A model generated the notes under the pieces. That model saw only the letters and a program-made list of their open reading frames with translations, ran no database searches and had not been told where the DNA came from. Source: Solicola gregarius (GTDB taxonomy: Bacteria > Actinomycetota > Actinomycetes > Propionibacteriales > Nocardioidaceae). Taken from it: 64,000 nt of DNA. This document shows, in pieces, positions 34,994 to 61,957 of this stretch. Within the stretch, counting starts at the first letter, position 1, and each line of letters begins with the position of its first letter. Both the position numbers and the translations under genes were made by a program. The stretch covers positions 186,001 through 250,000 of the forward strand of contig NZ_CP094970.1 in the NCBI RefSeq assembly GCF_025790165.1, given 5' to 3'.

Positions 34994-35985
34994 CTGAGTA
35001 CGAATCCTGTCTGTAGCGGGTCGTCGGCGTCGAGTACGAACAGGTGCTCGCCCGTACGGTACGCGGCGCCCGTCACCTCCGGCACAACCGTGTCCGCGCG
35101 CGTACCCGGCAGAGCCCTCGCGGTGAATCGGGTGTCGACGATCGAGTCGTGGGTCAGCGTCTCGCCCGCACCGAGCGTGCCGTCGTCGGCAAGAAGCGCG
35201 ACGCGGGCGCCTGTGCCCGATCCGCATGGCGACCGGTCGACCTCACCGTCGGCGAAGATCGTTACGTTGCGCTGATGCGGACCCTGCTGAGTTCGGCCGA
35301 GATCGTCGTACACGATCGTGCCGTAGATGCCGGACAGGCGATCGTCGGTCGGATGCCTGGCATGAGGCGAGTGGGCGAGCAGCGCCTTCACCTCGCGTCC
35401 CAACGCGATCAGCTCGCTGTACCGGTCAGGATCGACCGCCAACCCTGCGGGCCCGGCTGCGACCGACGCATAGATCGCGCCGCCGTAGCTCACGTCGACG
35501 TCGACAGGCCCGCGTGACGTCTCGAGTCGGACACCACGGGCAATCACGTACGACTCGACGTTTCGGAACGTCACGCTGCCGGTACGTCCTGCCGTTCGAT
35601 GCACCGTACCCACGACCCGGCCGGACGGGACATCGACCGTCACCTCGATGTCGCCATCTGTCGCACCCTGCACCAGACCGGACTCAACCGCCCACGTGGC
35701 AAGGGCGATCGTGCCATGGCCGCACGCCGTCGAGTAGCCATCCTGGTGCCAGAACACCACGCCCAGGTCGGCGCCCGCATCGTCGGGCTCAACCACGAAT
35801 CCGCCGTACATGTCCGCGTGCCCGCGAGGCTCCCGGACAAGGAGCTCGCGCACGCGCTCCGCCTCGTGACCGGTCTGCGCGTGGACGCGCTTGTCCGCGA
35901 CCGTGCTGCCCTCCAACGCGGGCGCTTCGACCACGATCCGGAACGGTTCCCCGGCGGTGTGGTAGTCGACCGTTCTCACCTGCAT
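34990..35985 (-). CDS. Proline racemase / hydroxyproline 2-epimerase family protein
   Basis: 331 aa. Both catalytic cysteines are present: STACGHGTIALATWA (first) and DRSPCGSGTGARVALL (second), so this should be a racemase/epimerase rather than the Cys-to-Thr 3-hydroxyproline dehydratase. N-terminal VDYHTAGEPFRIVVE is diagnostic. It forms a coupled two-gene operon with the ornithine cyclodeaminase-like enzyme. The substrate (4-hydroxyproline or proline) cannot be fixed by sequence alone. Confidence 0.87.
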   Translation of the reverse strand: MQVRTVDYHTAGEPFRIVVEAPALEGSTVADKRVHAQTGHEAERVRELLVREPRGHADMYGGFVVEPDDAGADLGVVFWHQDGYSTACGHGTIALATWAVESGLVQGATDGDIEVTVDVPSGRVVGTVHRTAGRTGSVTFRNVESYVIARGVRLETSRGPVDVDVSYGGAIYASVAAGPAGLAVDPDRYSELIALGREVKALLAHSPHARHPTDDRLSGIYGTIVYDDLGRTQQGPHQRNVTIFADGEVDRSPCGSGTGARVALLADDGTLGAGETLTHDSIVDTRFTARALPGTRADTVVPEVTGAAYRTGEHLFVLDADDPLQTGFVLR

Positions 35986-36055
35986 GCCGCGATCGTACGT
36001 GGAAGGCTTGGTTGGTCGGTCCGATGTGCCGGTTCGCCTTCATCGGCTTCCGTGC

Positions 36056-36213
36056 GCTGGGGTACCGGCTTCGTCGCTTTCGTACGCTGGGCTACTGGCC
36101 TTCACCGTTCTCCGTGCGCTGGGCTACTGGCCTTCACTGTTCTCGGTGCGCTGGACTACTGGCCTTCACCGTTCTCCGTGCGCTGGGCTACTGGCCTTCA
36201 CTGTTCCCCGTGC
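36056..36213 (+). repeat. Tandem ~32-bp repeats upstream of DUF222-HNH gene A
   Basis: Four 32-bp units in direct tandem (36086, 36118, 36150, 36182) of the form GCTGGGCTACTGGCCTTCAC + GTTCTCCGTGC, with one 30-bp degenerate unit at 36056 and fading similarity before it. The period is not a multiple of 3 and there are no spacers, so neither a protein repeat nor a CRISPR. A related, more degenerate array sits at 61830-61957 next to gene B. Confidence 0.9.
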
Positions 36214-36352
36214 GCTGGGGTGCGGACCGCACGGCGGCGACGAGATCCGTGTCCGGGTGGCTCGGGTTGCTGGTCGGCTTTCCCCAGCTTTTCGCTTCTA
36301 CCTTCGTCGTTGCCGTGTGCTTCGGTGTCGGCTCCGGCCCGTGGCGAGGAAG

Positions 36353-36394
36353 GAATCTGCGTTTGGGTCGCTATCCGCACCCAAACGCAGATTC
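36353..36394. repeat. Perfect 16-bp inverted repeat of HNH cassette A
   Basis: GAATCTGCGTTTGGGT, a 10-nt loop, then the exact inverse complement. The same arms occur as a 19-bp hairpin at 61652-61699. The position about 110 nt ahead of the HNH start is the same in both cassettes. Confidence 0.9.
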
Positions 36395-36506
36395 TCTTCG
36401 CACGGTCCATCCGGCCTAGAACTTTCTCGAACTTTTCTTGAAATCCCTTGTGGATAGGGCCCCTGAGCACCCGATCCTGTCGGTGGCGGGTGGCAGAATA
36501 TGTTCT

Positions 36507-37910
36507 ATGAGGGCGGCCACACTCACCGACGACGTCGGGTCCGGCGACGGGCTCGATGTTGCGCTGGATGCGCGGCGTCGGATCGCGCAGACCGAGGCTG
36601 CCCAGTACGACGCCCTCCTCGGCTACCTCGCCGACACCGCAGGTACGCCCCTCGCACGGGCCGGTGGTGTCAACGAGTGGACGCGTTACGGCGGGTCGGG
36701 CACCCCGAGCGTGTCGGAGTACGCCGCGTGTGAGGTCGGGCCTGCACTCGGGCTGTCCGCGTCCGGCGGTCGGGACCTGATCGCCGACGCATTGGATCTC
36801 ACCTACCGCCTCCCGCAACTGTTCGCCTGCCTGCACGAAGGTTCGGTGGATGCGTGGCGGATCCGGAAGGTCGCCCGCAAGACCCGACGATTCACCATCG
36901 CCCAAGCCGGCGACGCCGACCGTCGGCTCGCCGCGGCGAATGTGGACGGGACGCCGTTGATCGCGCGAGTCGGCATGGGGCGGGTCCAGCAGATCCTGGA
37001 CCAGATCCGCATCGTCGAAGACCCCGACGACGCCGAAAACCAACGGACCGAGAACAGTGCTCGGCGGAGTGTGTCGATCTGGCCCGACGACGGACTCGCC
37101 CGCATCTCCGGGTCCCTGTCGCTGGACGACGGCGAGAGGCTGGACCAGCGTCTCGACCAGATCGTCGAATCGCTCCGGTTCCTCGGCGACAACCGCCCTC
37201 ACGGCATCCTCCGCTCCGTCGCCCTCGGCATGCTCGACGAACCCGACAGCCTCGACGACCTCTACCACCAGGTCGCCGCCGCCCGTCGCGGTTCCGGCGG
37301 CGGCACCGATGCAGACGCCGACGATTCGTACGCCGACCAGTCGGCCGACGAGCCCGGTGACGGCGGGTCACCCGAACGGGCACGTCGGGCGCGCCGCTCC
37401 GGCTCGCGGCACACCGTTCTGTACGTCCATTTCGACCGGTGCTGGGGCACCTGGTCACTCGAAGACGTCGGCGCCATCACAAGATCCGAAGCGCTCGAGA
37501 TCCTCGGCCACTCCCACATCACCGTCAAACCCGTCATCGACCTCGAGACCAGCATCTCGGCCACCGGCTACGTCGCACCACCACGGCTCAAAGAGCAGCT
37601 CGCCCTGATGAACGCCGGCACCTGCACGTTCCCGCACTGCAACCGACCAGCCCGCATCGGCGACTACGACCACATCATCAACCACCGAGAAGGCGGCACG
37701 ACCGACACGAGAAACGGCCACCGACTATGTAGGTACCACCACCGCGCGAAAACCTTCACCGCCTGGACCGTGCAATCACCCGCACCCGGCATCTGGCTCT
37801 GGCAATCACCCGCCGGCCGCACGTACCTCGTCACCGGCGGGACAACCACCAAACTCCCCGGTCAAATCAGCCGAACCGCACAAGCCAAGCGAAAACACGA
37901 CGCCGCGTAG
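36507..37910 (+). CDS. DUF222 HNH endonuclease (REP13E12-like), cassette A
   Basis: 467 aa. DUF222 domain (about 25-300) and C-terminal HNH nuclease (about 373-412) with CTFPHCNRPARIGDYDHIIN, the glycine pair and N in GGTTDTRNGH and LCRYHHRAKTF. A variable acidic linker lies near 275-300. The ATG at 36507 is supported by CAGAAT 7 nt upstream in both copies; a longer TTG frame from 36438 exists. Proteins of this type fill the REP13E12 repeats of mycobacteria. Copy B at 60150-61541 is nearly the same in residues 53-155 while differing at many synonymous sites, so both seem to be under selection. Confidence 0.88.
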   Translation: MRAATLTDDVGSGDGLDVALDARRRIAQTEAAQYDALLGYLADTAGTPLARAGGVNEWTRYGGSGTPSVSEYAACEVGPALGLSASGGRDLIADALDLTYRLPQLFACLHEGSVDAWRIRKVARKTRRFTIAQAGDADRRLAAANVDGTPLIARVGMGRVQQILDQIRIVEDPDDAENQRTENSARRSVSIWPDDGLARISGSLSLDDGERLDQRLDQIVESLRFLGDNRPHGILRSVALGMLDEPDSLDDLYHQVAAARRGSGGGTDADADDSYADQSADEPGDGGSPERARRARRSGSRHTVLYVHFDRCWGTWSLEDVGAITRSEALEILGHSHITVKPVIDLETSISATGYVAPPRLKEQLALMNAGTCTFPHCNRPARIGDYDHIINHREGGTTDTRNGHRLCRYHHRAKTFTAWTVQSPAPGIWLWQSPAGRTYLVTGGTTTKLPGQISRTAQAKRKHDAA

Positions 37911-37913
37911 GCT

Positions 37914-37943
37914 CCCCGCCACGACAGCACCACCGCGGCGGGG
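37914..37943. terminator. Terminal hairpin of HNH cassette A
   Basis: CCCCGCC-N16-GGCGGGG, directly after the HNH stop. The whole 30-bp block is identical to 60118-60147 after cassette B. It may serve as terminator and as a cassette end. Confidence 0.8.
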
Positions 37944-37953
37944 CACCGGCACG

Positions 37954-38430
37954 TCAAAACAGCACGTCGTCGCGACGCTGCGACTCCAGCTCCAACAGCA
38001 GGCGCTTGTTGTCCAGGCCGCCGCCGTATCCGGTGAGCGACCCGTTGGCGCCGATCACCCGATGGCAGGGAACGACAATAGAGATCGGGTTCGACCCGTT
38101 CGCGAGGCCGACCGCGCGTGAAGCAGACGGCGGCAGGCCGAGCCGGGTCGCGACCTCGCCGTAGCTCGTGGTCTCGCCGTACGGGATGTTCAGCAGCTCC
38201 TGCCACACGCGACGCTGGAAGTCGGTGCCGCTCGGCTCGATCGGAAGGTCGAACTCGTCCAGCTCACCGGCGAAGTACGCCACCAGCTGCCGCTGCGTCT
38301 CGCGCAGGATCGGCGAGTCCGACGACTCCTCGGGGTCCGTCACGAACCTGATCTCGGTCAGCTTGTGCCCGTCGGTGCGCAGCCGCAACGGGCCGACGGG
38401 CGATCGCATCACCAGCTGTGTCTCACTCAT
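37954..38430 (-). CDS. ogt: Methylated-DNA--protein-cysteine methyltransferase
   Basis: 158 aa. The acceptor motif is PCHRVIG (in ISIVVPCHRVIGANGSLTGYGGG), preceded by the helix-turn-helix TSYGEVATRLGLPPSASRAVGLANGSNP. It removes O6-alkyl groups from guanine by suicide transfer. The ATG at 38430 overlaps the upstream ada-alkA stop (ATGA), so both alkylation-repair proteins are made from one mRNA. Confidence 0.94.
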   Translation of the reverse strand: MSETQLVMRSPVGPLRLRTDGHKLTEIRFVTDPEESSDSPILRETQRQLVAYFAGELDEFDLPIEPSGTDFQRRVWQELLNIPYGETTSYGEVATRLGLPPSASRAVGLANGSNPISIVVPCHRVIGANGSLTGYGGGLDNKRLLLELESQRRDDVLF

Positions 38431-59171: not shown

Positions 59172-60068
59172 ATGCGCGCACTCGCCGCAGTCACGACGAC
59201 AGCACTCGCACTCGCCACACTGACCGCCTGCGGCGGCGACGCCTCCGGCGAGGGAAGCGTCGACTGCGCCGACGCACCCGAGGTCACCGTGACCGACAAC
59301 GGCTCGAGCCCTCGTACCGAGCTGCGCCTGTCGCCGAAGCAGGGCGACACGGTCAAGCTGGACTTGGAGCTGGATATGGACCTGTCGATGGAGGCCGACG
59401 GCTCCAGCGTGCCGACGGGCTCCGTACCCACGATCACGATGGGCATGGTCGCGACCGTCGAGAGCGCCACCGACGACGAGATCGAGATGTCGTTCGAGTA
59501 CGACACGGTCGACGCCGGCGGCGACCCGACCGTCGAGTCGACGCTGCGTACGATCATCGGCACCTCCGGGACGATCACCACCGATGCGAGAGGCGTCTAC
59601 GTCGACGGCGACATCGAGCCGGCACCGGGCATGGACCCGACGATGGAGAGCACCCTCCAGCAGCTGGAGCAACAGTTCGCCAACATGACGGTCCCGCTCC
59701 CCGACGTGGCGATCGGGCAGGGCGCGATCTGGGAGGTCGAGACACCGGTCGAGTTCAACGGCCTCGAGACCTGCAACACTTACACGTACACGCTCGACGA
59801 GCTCGACGGGGCGGCGTACACGCTCGGCGTTGAGATCGACCAGCAGATGGCGCCGGGCACGGTCGAGCAGAACGGCGTCGAGGCCAAGTTGACCGAGGGA
59901 TCCTCGTCGGGCTCGGGTACGACGCACGGCAACCTCGACCTGCCGCTCGCGGTCTCCGGTACTTCCGACCTCGACTCCGCGACGACGATGGAGGTCGACC
60001 AGGGCGGCGACACCCAGGAGATCAAGACCGACATCGGCATGAACCTCACCATCGCCGAGCGCGAGTGA
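59172..60068 (+). CDS. Secreted lipoprotein, DUF6263-like
   Basis: 298 aa. Lipobox LATLTAC, then a mature protein rich in Thr/Asp/Glu with ELRLSPKQGDTVKLDLELDMDLSM, AIWEVETPVEFNGLETCNTYTY and a beta-strand pattern, as in the DUF6263 family of actinobacterial lipoproteins. Function unknown. Third gene in a row encoding an exported lipoprotein; it ends 50 nt before the HNH cassette B hairpin. Confidence 0.75.
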   Translation: MRALAAVTTTALALATLTACGGDASGEGSVDCADAPEVTVTDNGSSPRTELRLSPKQGDTVKLDLELDMDLSMEADGSSVPTGSVPTITMGMVATVESATDDEIEMSFEYDTVDAGGDPTVESTLRTIIGTSGTITTDARGVYVDGDIEPAPGMDPTMESTLQQLEQQFANMTVPLPDVAIGQGAIWEVETPVEFNGLETCNTYTYTLDELDGAAYTLGVEIDQQMAPGTVEQNGVEAKLTEGSSSGSGTTHGNLDLPLAVSGTSDLDSATTMEVDQGGDTQEIKTDIGMNLTIAERE

Positions 60069-60117
60069 CTCGTCCGTTCCAGGTGGGGCCGTCCGTCGCT
60101 ATCCGGGCATGCGGATA

Positions 60118-60147
60118 CCCCGCCGCGGTGGTGCTGTCGTGGCGGGG
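60118..60147. terminator. Terminal hairpin of HNH cassette B
   Basis: The same 30-bp CCCCGCC-N16-GGCGGGG block as 37914-37943, inverted, 2 nt past the HNH stop. Confidence 0.8.
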
Positions 60148-60149
60148 TC

Positions 60150-61541
60150 CTAAGCGACGCTCTGTTTTCGCTTGTCCTGGACGGTGTTGGTGACGCGGCC
60201 GGGGAGTCTGGTGGTTGTGCCGCCGGTGACGAGGTACGTGCGGCCGGCGGGTGATTGCCAGAGCCAGATGCCGGGTCCGGGATTGGATACCTGCCAGGTG
60301 GTGAAGGTCTTGGCGCGGTGGTGATACCGACAGAGGCGGTGGCCGTTTCTCGAGTCGGTCGGGCCGCCGTCGGCGTGGTTGAGGATGTGGTCGTAGTCGG
60401 CGACCCGGGCGGGGCGTGTGCAGTGGGGGAAGGTGCAGATACTCGCGTTCATCAGGCCGAGCTGTTCCTTCAACCGCGGCGGCGCGACATACCCGGTGGC
60501 CGAGATGGTGGTCTCCAGGTCGATGACGGGTTTGACGGTCACGTGGGAGTGGCCGAGGATCTCGGCGGCTTCGGAGCGGGTGATGGCGCCGACGTCTTCG
60601 ATCGACCAGGTGCCCCAGCACCGGTCGAAATGGACGTACAACACCGTCTGCCGCGAGCCGGAGCGGCGCGCCCGACGTGCTCGTTCGGGCGACCCGCCGT
60701 CACCGGGCTGGTCGGCGTACGAATCGTCGGCGCCTGCATCGGCGCCGCCGCCGGAACCGCAACGGGCGACGGCGACCTGGTGGTAGAGGTCGTCGAGGCT
60801 GTCGGGTTCGTCGAGCATCCCGAGGGCGACCGAGCGGAGGATGTCGTAGGCCCGGTTGTCGCCGAGGAACCGCAAGGATTCGACGATCTGGTCGAGACGT
60901 TGATCCAACCTCTTGCCGTCGTCGAGTGAGAGGGTGCCCGCGATGCGGGCGACGCCGTCGTCGGGCCAGATCGACACACTCCGACGGTTCCGGTTTTCGT
61001 TGCGCCGGTGTTCGGGGTCGTCGGGGTCTTCTGTGATGCGGATCTGGTCGAGGATCTGGTTCACCCGCGCCATGCCGACCCGCGCGATCAACGGCGTCCC
61101 GTCGACGTTGGCCGCGGCGAGGCGTCGGTCGGCGTCGGCGGCTTGGGCGATGGTGAATCGTCGGGTCTTGCGGGCGACCTTGCGGATCCGCCACGCATCG
61201 ACAGATCCTTCGTGGAGGCAGGCGAACAGTTGCGGGAGCCGGTAGGTGAGGTCGAGGGCGTCGGCGATCAGGTCCCGGCCACCGGATGCGGACAGCCCGA
61301 GTGCAGGCCCGACCTCACACGCGGCGTACTCCGACACCGATGGGGTGCCCGACCCGCCGTAACGGGTCCACTCATTCACCCCGCCAGCCCGTGCGAGGGA
61401 CTCCTCGGCGACCTGGCCCAAGTAGGCGGTCAGCGCGTCGTACTGCGCGGCCTCGGACTTGGCGATCCGACGCCGCGCATCCAACGCGATGTCGAGCCCG
61501 TCCTTGGACCCGGTGTTATCGGTGAGTGTGGCCGCCCTCAT
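60150..61541 (-). CDS. DUF222 HNH endonuclease (REP13E12-like), cassette B
   Basis: 463 aa, paralogue of 36507-37910 on the opposite strand. DUF222 domain first, then HNH with CTFPHCTRPARVADYDHILN, GGPTDSRNGH and LCRYHHRAKTF. Differences from copy A cluster at residues 9-52, in the 165-205 segment and in the acidic linker, while 53-155 are almost the same. The ATG at 61541 follows CAGAAT at 7 nt as in copy A. It sits between the lipoprotein cluster and era, splitting the era-leuA neighbourhood. Confidence 0.88.
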   Translation of the reverse strand: MRAATLTDNTGSKDGLDIALDARRRIAKSEAAQYDALTAYLGQVAEESLARAGGVNEWTRYGGSGTPSVSEYAACEVGPALGLSASGGRDLIADALDLTYRLPQLFACLHEGSVDAWRIRKVARKTRRFTIAQAADADRRLAAANVDGTPLIARVGMARVNQILDQIRITEDPDDPEHRRNENRNRRSVSIWPDDGVARIAGTLSLDDGKRLDQRLDQIVESLRFLGDNRAYDILRSVALGMLDEPDSLDDLYHQVAVARCGSGGGADAGADDSYADQPGDGGSPERARRARRSGSRQTVLYVHFDRCWGTWSIEDVGAITRSEAAEILGHSHVTVKPVIDLETTISATGYVAPPRLKEQLGLMNASICTFPHCTRPARVADYDHILNHADGGPTDSRNGHRLCRYHHRAKTFTTWQVSNPGPGIWLWQSPAGRTYLVTGGTTTRLPGRVTNTVQDKRKQSVA

Positions 61542-61651
61542 AGAACCTATTCTGCCACCCGCCACCGACAGAACCGGATGCTCAGAGGCCTTATCCACAA
61601 GGGATGTCAAGAAAAGTTCGAGAAAGTTCTAGGCCCGGGTAGCCGATGCGC

Positions 61652-61699
61652 AGAGAATCTGCGTTTGGGTACGAATAGCGACCCAAACGCAGATTCTCT
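61652..61699. repeat. Perfect 19-bp inverted repeat of HNH cassette B
   Basis: AGAGAATCTGCGTTTGGGT, 10-nt loop, exact inverse. The central 16 bp of each arm equal those of cassette A, but the loops differ. Confidence 0.9.
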
Positions 61700-61829
61700 C
61701 GTCGCCACGGGGCCGGGCCGGCACCGAAGCGCACGGAAACGATGAAAGCGGAAACGAAAAGCTGGGGAAAGCCGACCAGCAACGCGAGCCGCCCGGGTAC
61801 GGATCTCGTCGCCGCCTATCGGTCTGCAC

Positions 61830-61957
61830 CGCCGCAAACGGGAAACGATGAAGGTCGGAAGCCCAGCGCACGGGAAACGGTGAAGGCGGAAGCCCAACGC
61901 ACGGAAGTTTAAGACAGCGGCCCAACGCACGGAAAGCTGAACACCGGAGCCGAACGC
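61830..61957 (-). repeat. Degenerate ~29-32-bp tandem repeats of cassette B
   Basis: Read on the minus strand, units of the form GCTGGGCTTCCGCCTTCACC + GTTTCCCGTGC recur about four times, with decay toward the era stop. They are homologous to the array at 36056-36213 and lie at the same distance from the HNH gene. Confidence 0.8.

Follow-up and report, generated by a model that had tools for sequence, protein, structure and literature searches.

Homing endonuclease genes target one cognate allele, and IS200/IS605-like elements carry IscB or TnpB. DUF222-HNH (REP13E12) repeats, a recent preprint states, are without a defined biological function, and in the tubercle bacillus they belong to the loci with the most recombination (PMC13061034); the same text describes the repeats of M. 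tuberculosis as hot spots of gene conversion, with 87 events. Phage integration into REP13E12 repeats has been reported for mycobacteria, and five putative HNH endonuclease genes were RecA-dependent under mitomycin C, in a passage of PMC8151990 that leaves unstated whether these are 13E12 genes. For the CGTC class of REPs, the identity of the mover is called an open point in PMC3733652.

Here we analyse a window of 64,000 nucleotides from Solicola gregarius (positions 186,001 to 250,000 of contig NZ_CP094970.1) that holds two DUF222-HNH cassettes, A and B. The source genome, one contig of 4.9 Mb, is called G000 and a second genome of the same genus G001; coordinates are those of the window unless G000 is stated. 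We favour the reading, with a probability of roughly 0.6, that the cassettes are REP13E12-type, damage-induced nuclease elements copied through host break repair.

Parts and extents of the two cassettes

The initial annotation of this DNA had described two cassettes with the same named parts, B being inverted relative to A, and this observation was confirmed. On the + strand, copy A (36002..37953) carries a tandem repeat array of period 32 and 5.4 copies (36049..36219, from repeat finding); a conserved leader block, common to other copies, between repeats and hairpin (36220..36352); a perfect 16-bp hairpin with a 10-nt loop (36353..36394); CCCTTGTGGATAGGG, a DnaA-box-like imperfect palindrome (36445..36459), with TTGTGGATA in 23/23 cassettes of two species; a putative damage promoter, TGTCGGTG-N8-CAGAAT (36478..36499); and a DUF222-HNH gene of 467 aa, recognised from its ORF and Pfam, that runs from an ATG at 36507 to the end of its stop codon at 37910. 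The 30-bp terminal hairpin block follows (37914..37943, an exact match), and then a right-end tail, CACCGGCACG (37944..37953), delimited by copy comparison, which reaches as far as the neighbouring gene's stop codon. Copy B lies on the - strand (60064..61949), with tandem repeats of period 31 and 2.1 copies (61838..61904, by TRF), the perfect 16-bp hairpin (61655..61696), a putative damage promoter, TGTCGGTG-N8-CAGAAT, placed by motif comparison (61549..61570), a DUF222-HNH gene of 463 aa (ORF and Pfam; ATG at 61541, stop end at 60150), the 30-bp terminal hairpin block (60118..60147, again an exact match) and the right-end tail TATCCGCATGCC (60106..60117, by copy comparison).

Tandem repeats are common to both cassettes, as had been claimed, and they are unequal in period and copy number. 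The perfect hairpin ascribed to both is present in both, as four exact arms in the window that form 36353-36394 and 61655-61696; when the 16-bp arm was allowed up to three mismatches, 100 shuffled sequences averaged 0.25 matches each, never as many as four. The terminal block was likewise found as two perfect copies identical over 30 bp, one on each strand, with 0 expected by chance. The borders needed correction: these had been put at 36056-37943 and 60118-61957, and the empty sites in G001 place them slightly wider, at ~36002-37953 and ~60064-61949. There, the flanks that meet A at G000 222001 and 223954 are separated by 8 nt, and those that meet B at G000 246063 and 247950 by 12 nt.

The right end of A coincides with the stop codon of the gene to its right, and the genes on both sides of B have their 3' ends towards it; from our reading of the translations, the genes next to A and B would be ogt, era and a lipoprotein gene. 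At gathering scores, no known RNA in Rfam was matched at the hairpin (35900-38100 searched).

Copies, palindromes and ends beyond the window

G000 holds 13 gene-bearing copies, 12 full-length and one truncated; they are 81-89% alike, and none is near-identical to A. With up to three mismatches, the terminal block was found at 12 places, which are the 12 full-length copies (reversed-pattern control 0), in keeping with the proposal that it always flanks the gene. For the hairpin the same proposal failed. At the same tolerance it occurs at 27 places in G000 (control 0): 13 have a gene beside them, whether intact or broken, two are on cassette remnants, and 12 are gene-free, that is, with no gene or recognised remnant beyond the leader; moreover, 3/12 full-length copies have no intact hairpin directly upstream. 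Occurrence without HNH genes thus applies in part to the hairpin, whereas the terminal block sits only on gene copies. Because 12 of the 27 places are gene-free, the hairpin appears able to spread or persist alone, and several of these 12 retain part of the leader.

Ten of the 27 hairpins have a gene start no more than 170 bp away (in nine full-length copies and the truncated one), one lies 0.9 kb from its gene, two accompany gene remnants (G000 2123099 and 4767004), and two sit on gene-less remnants, at G000 1216564 with leader and promoter kept, and at 3881857 with the hairpin joined to a right-end piece. Measured from hairpin start, the intact hairpin stands 114-166 bp before the ATG in 9/12 full-length copies; it is lost in L009, lies 0.9 kb off beyond a foreign piece in L010, and is split by ~1.35 kb in L011. 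The foreign DNA inside or beside the hairpins of L011 (G000 2261180-2262900) and L010 (4288150-4289120) contains frames that, named by eye, are VOC-like and SnoaL-like. Changes in the arms of the 27 hairpins are often compensated. The GAATCTGC palindrome, with 22 exact occurrences in G000, belongs to this species; among 391 genomes of the order, 10 others have from 1 to 6 occurrences, with differing interiors.

Other palindrome-bearing units were seen in G000 as well. A third hairpin family occurs at G000 419298 and 1268619 (L113, L027), followed by a shared CTTAAAAAYAAGGCGAAACCGC stretch, and no gene was recognised there. At L172 (G000 2857227-2858348) and L173 (4847667-4848584) lies a gene of 312 aa with weak AbiEi matches in PADLOC and no Pfam match, which by our own reading may be AbiEi-like with a Vsr-like end; inverted palindromes flank it on both sides, those in L172 belonging to the family of the cassette hairpin and those in L173 to a variant, and the L172 unit is missing at the corresponding G001 site.

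In G006, from another genus of the Nocardioidaceae, an unrelated palindrome with 34-bp arms occupies the same position in L153, L156 and L157; its arm was matched 24 times, 12 on each strand (control 0), and at all six loci read a DUF222-HNH gene, whether intact, broken or a remnant, is close by. G251, of another family of the order, has a different palindrome, GAATCTGCACC..GGTGCAGATTC, in six copies. The idea that a perfect hairpin always accompanies the gene was dropped, a strict finder having detected one upstream at 3/78 named loci, of which two are of the G006 type. At least two matches to a REP-like motif, chosen after some of the tested loci had been read, fall within 450 bp upstream at 33/73 named Nocardioides loci vs 173/1636 random windows; in stretches called non-coding, by a caller that labelled 22% of the HNH gene non-coding, there are 7.47 matches per kb upstream vs 1.09. 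Dense REP-like arrays (GGTCGAGTAGCCCGCGAGGAACGAGCGGGCGTATCGAGACC and kin) were observed immediately upstream of DUF222-HNH genes in L255, L265, L277, L286, L251 and L257 (Nocardioides).

After the terminal block come CACCGGCATGCC in G000 or CACAGGCATGCC in G001, and then unique DNA; this end is sharp in most of the 20 copies shown (24 loci tried), with the tails of L002 and L006, two of these 20, deviating from the consensus. The left end varies with repeat number. A search of named genomes with a single protein gave no match, and an alignment-based search gave 80 loci; named relatives, at 30-45% protein identity, have a GC hairpin with a like tail downstream of the gene. With at most one mismatch and at most 140 bp past the stop, CACMGGCAYGYCC was found at 25/80 named loci vs 4/1112 and 8/1112 control windows for the two strands, a comparison that is not blind, since the motif was derived from G000 and G001 and then relaxed once 32 named loci had been viewed; the controls were other windows of the same loci. 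On the best reading, the right end is a conserved terminus and the palindromic leader is lineage-specific.

Flank pieces of 20 G000 sites were sought in G001; 19/23 pieces were found, and 17 site pairs were then compared. In 8/17 pairs the flanks are nearly joined in G001, with 8 nt between them at A, 12 at B, 24 at 332725, 42 at 1556775, 48 at the 2857/2858 pair, 92 at 4004429, 118 at 419298 and 169 at 1795104 (G000 positions). As for the remaining pairs, G001 has a cassette too at 1545027, other DNA lies between the flanks at 756950 and 4767004, and six have one flank only. Empty sites for three full cassettes (A, B and 4004429) therefore exist in this same-genus genome, and the initial worry that cassette borders might match no empty site falls away. 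By eye, no target duplication was seen at these three sites. In this two-genome comparison the empty sites could be losses in G001; it is by the number of scattered copies that gain is told from loss.

In a tree of 23 cassettes, each of the two species forms one clade (100/100). Site 1545027, paired with L209, is the only one at which both species have cassettes and both flanks are aligned; among other sites shared by G000 and G001, 1006197 corresponds to L203 by its left flank alone, and the solo hairpin 4701867 corresponds by both flanks to the cassette L200. Species clades together with shared sites would point either to conversion of copies within each genome or to the same spots being hit repeatedly, and the shared sites could be independent insertions.

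The putative promoter and the DUF222-HNH protein

In 23/23 cassettes of G000 and G001, TGTCRGTG is followed after 8 nt by CAGAAT or CATGAT, with the ATG 7 nt further. The published damage promoter, from which we took the consensus, reads tTGTCRgtg-8 nt-TannnT in PMC5656591; the cassette -10 differs from it at the first base, and the -35, TGTCRGTG, a motif of the PafBC/RecA-NDp type, is exact in 23/23. The gene had been called leaderless, which is plausible because the ATG lies only 7 nt past the putative -10, in copies from both species. Near 37/78 named genes there are strict patterns of the RecA-NDp or SOS kind, vs 25/3016 control windows. Judged from such motifs, the cassette gene is probably damage-induced. 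Upstream of the promoter motif, all 23 cassettes have the DnaA-box-like imperfect palindrome CCCTTGTGGATAAGG (36445-36459 in the window); TTGTGGATA recurs near the DUF222-HNH genes of G043 and G054, but among named loci in only 2/78.

DUF222 (PF02720) scored above its cut-off in both proteins (E 1.8e-15 in A, 8.8e-16 in B), and HNH (PF01844) came just under its cut-off in A (E 7.9e-4; 20 bits vs 21.4) and was unlisted in B. The D-H, N, H-H and Cys positions of the HNH part are invariant across nine aligned proteins, and its structural matches are IscB (Z 6.4), ScoMcrA (Z 6.1) and EcoKMcrA (Z 5.8). The median dN/dS is 0.24 over 66 pairs from 12 G000 genes and 0.10 over 28 pairs from eight G001 genes; going by these ratios, the copies are under purifying selection.

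Modelled alone, the DUF222 part has a mean pLDDT of 90.2. With 279 chains compared, the best 7 of 50 matches to this model are Noc, ParB, KorB and Spo0J (Z 4.9-7.3, rmsd 2.7-4.2 over 92-107 residues), and the best unrelated one has Z 4.0; values of Z below 8 (~13 for helical folds) may reflect a common arrangement. Neither the DUF222 model nor the other one was matched by Foldseek at E <= 0.001. ParB, Noc, KorB and Spo0J proteins bind palindromic sites, and the model suggests a ParB/KorB-like, palindrome-binding-type fold for DUF222, as a lead and not as proof. When a solved relative was sought by sequence, nothing convincing emerged: there were four matches with E 0.38-0.97, one of which is IscB. 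A defence role by model match was rejected, with no PADLOC or NCBIfam model matching the protein. Carriage by phages or plasmids was also set aside; viral contigs and phages gave no confirmed relative, and there was one plasmid match, from Georgenia, at 27.5% identity.

How the element may spread, and its place among known systems

Twelve full-length scattered copies and one truncated copy, three empty sites and the sharp right end support the proposal that the unit is a defined one, mobile or self-copying; we consider the cassette very probably a mobile element whose right end is fixed. The finding of no transposase domain in the Pfam scan counts against the reading that we favour. In this favoured reading, DNA damage would turn on the gene via PafBC or LexA, the ParB/KorB-like DUF222 domain would bring the protein to palindromic DNA, the HNH domain would nick or cut there, and host break repair would copy the element into the break or convert one copy by another. 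That the element's own nuclease drives copying or conversion has, in our estimate, a little under an even chance, and that the palindromes serve as binding or cutting sites of the protein is a tentative and rather unlikely part of the scheme. Taken together, the damage-type promoter, the suggested palindrome-binding fold, the nuclease domain and the conserved right end yield a testable idea, namely that the nuclease may provoke its own copying or conversion; among open-licence PMC papers we found none that joins these features.

The force that moves the element might instead come from outside it. DUF222-HNH could be cargo, as IscB is in IS200/IS605-like elements, with an unrelated transposase acting in trans on the palindromes or the right-end hairpin. 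A hairpin whose distance from the right end is constant, the 12/27 gene-free palindromes and the internally deleted copies that keep both ends (G000 3881857, G006 C16) would suit such an arrangement, but purifying selection on the gene asks for a function, and a Y1 family search found no Y1 transposase in G000; we hold it to be distinctly improbable. A Y1 (RAYT/IS200) transposase as mover was itself rejected, with no PF01797 match in G000 and the family matched in 5/14 control genomes.

Neither do we give much credence to an old, immobile dispersed family that arose by past duplication, was homogenised by ordinary gene conversion and, regulated by DNA damage, has a role in repair or in defence. 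The sharp right end, the intergenic positions with unrelated flanks, and the species-specific occupancy with empty sites fit unit insertion better than segmental duplication, and the protein has no PADLOC defence model match; the 81-89% likeness of copies, none near-identical to A, the damage-type promoters and the gene conversion of REP13E12 in M. tuberculosis, as described in PMC13061034, do agree with an old family. It is also conceivable, if unlikely, that the hairpins are an independent REP-like repeat beside which the HNH cassette tends to insert, hairpin and gene being unconnected. This would account for the 12/27 gene-free hairpins, for the AbiEi/Vsr-like genes that are likewise flanked by such palindromes, and for L009-L011 without an intact hairpin directly upstream; it sits less well with the same distance in 9/12 full-length copies (114-166 bp from hairpin start to ATG), with the unrelated palindrome that occupies the same position in G006, and with the higher density of REP-like motifs ahead of the gene in named Nocardioides.

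A bolder step beyond the favoured reading of damage-induced copying through host repair, and a doubtful one, would assign DUF222-HNH proteins to the REP-like palindromes of actinobacteria as their dedicated, damage-induced nucleases, the two together being an HNH-based equivalent of RAYT and REP. The ParB/KorB-like domain would then read the palindromic ends, HNH would nick them, and repair copying would scatter both gene-bearing elements and gene-free palindromes. If true, this would explain the mycobacterial REP13E12 repeats and why they are gene-conversion hot spots. The element is also a candidate answer to the question of what moves palindromic repeats without a known transposase.

When compared with free-standing HNH homing endonuclease genes, the cassette shares a nuclease gene that could benefit when the cuts it makes are repaired, but it occurs at many unrelated sites and not at one cognate allele. 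It resembles IS200/IS605-like elements with IscB or TnpB in having a hairpin near the right end and an HNH part that, among the matches listed, is structurally nearest to IscB (Z 6.4); unlike these, it has no TnpA, no RuvC part in Pfam and no Rfam match. As in the REP/REPIN-RAYT system, there are many intergenic palindromes, some beside a nuclease gene and many alone (12/27 gene-free here), whereas the gene encodes an HNH and not a Y1 protein, no Y1 having been found in G000. The palindromes also fall outside the definition of CGTC REPs, which in PMC3733652 have a stem of 8-9 bp, a loop of 4-5 nt and an unpaired CGTC tag; stems here are 16-23 bp, with loops of ~10 nt. With REP13E12/13E12 of mycobacteria the cassettes share multi-copy DUF222-HNH genes, damage-type promoters and likeness within a species, gene conversion being reported for M. 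tuberculosis in PMC13061034; DUF222, a C-terminal HNH motif and repeated copies in one genome are all present. They differ from REP13E12 in the palindrome and tandem-repeat leader and in the right-end tail that we describe for the present cassettes.
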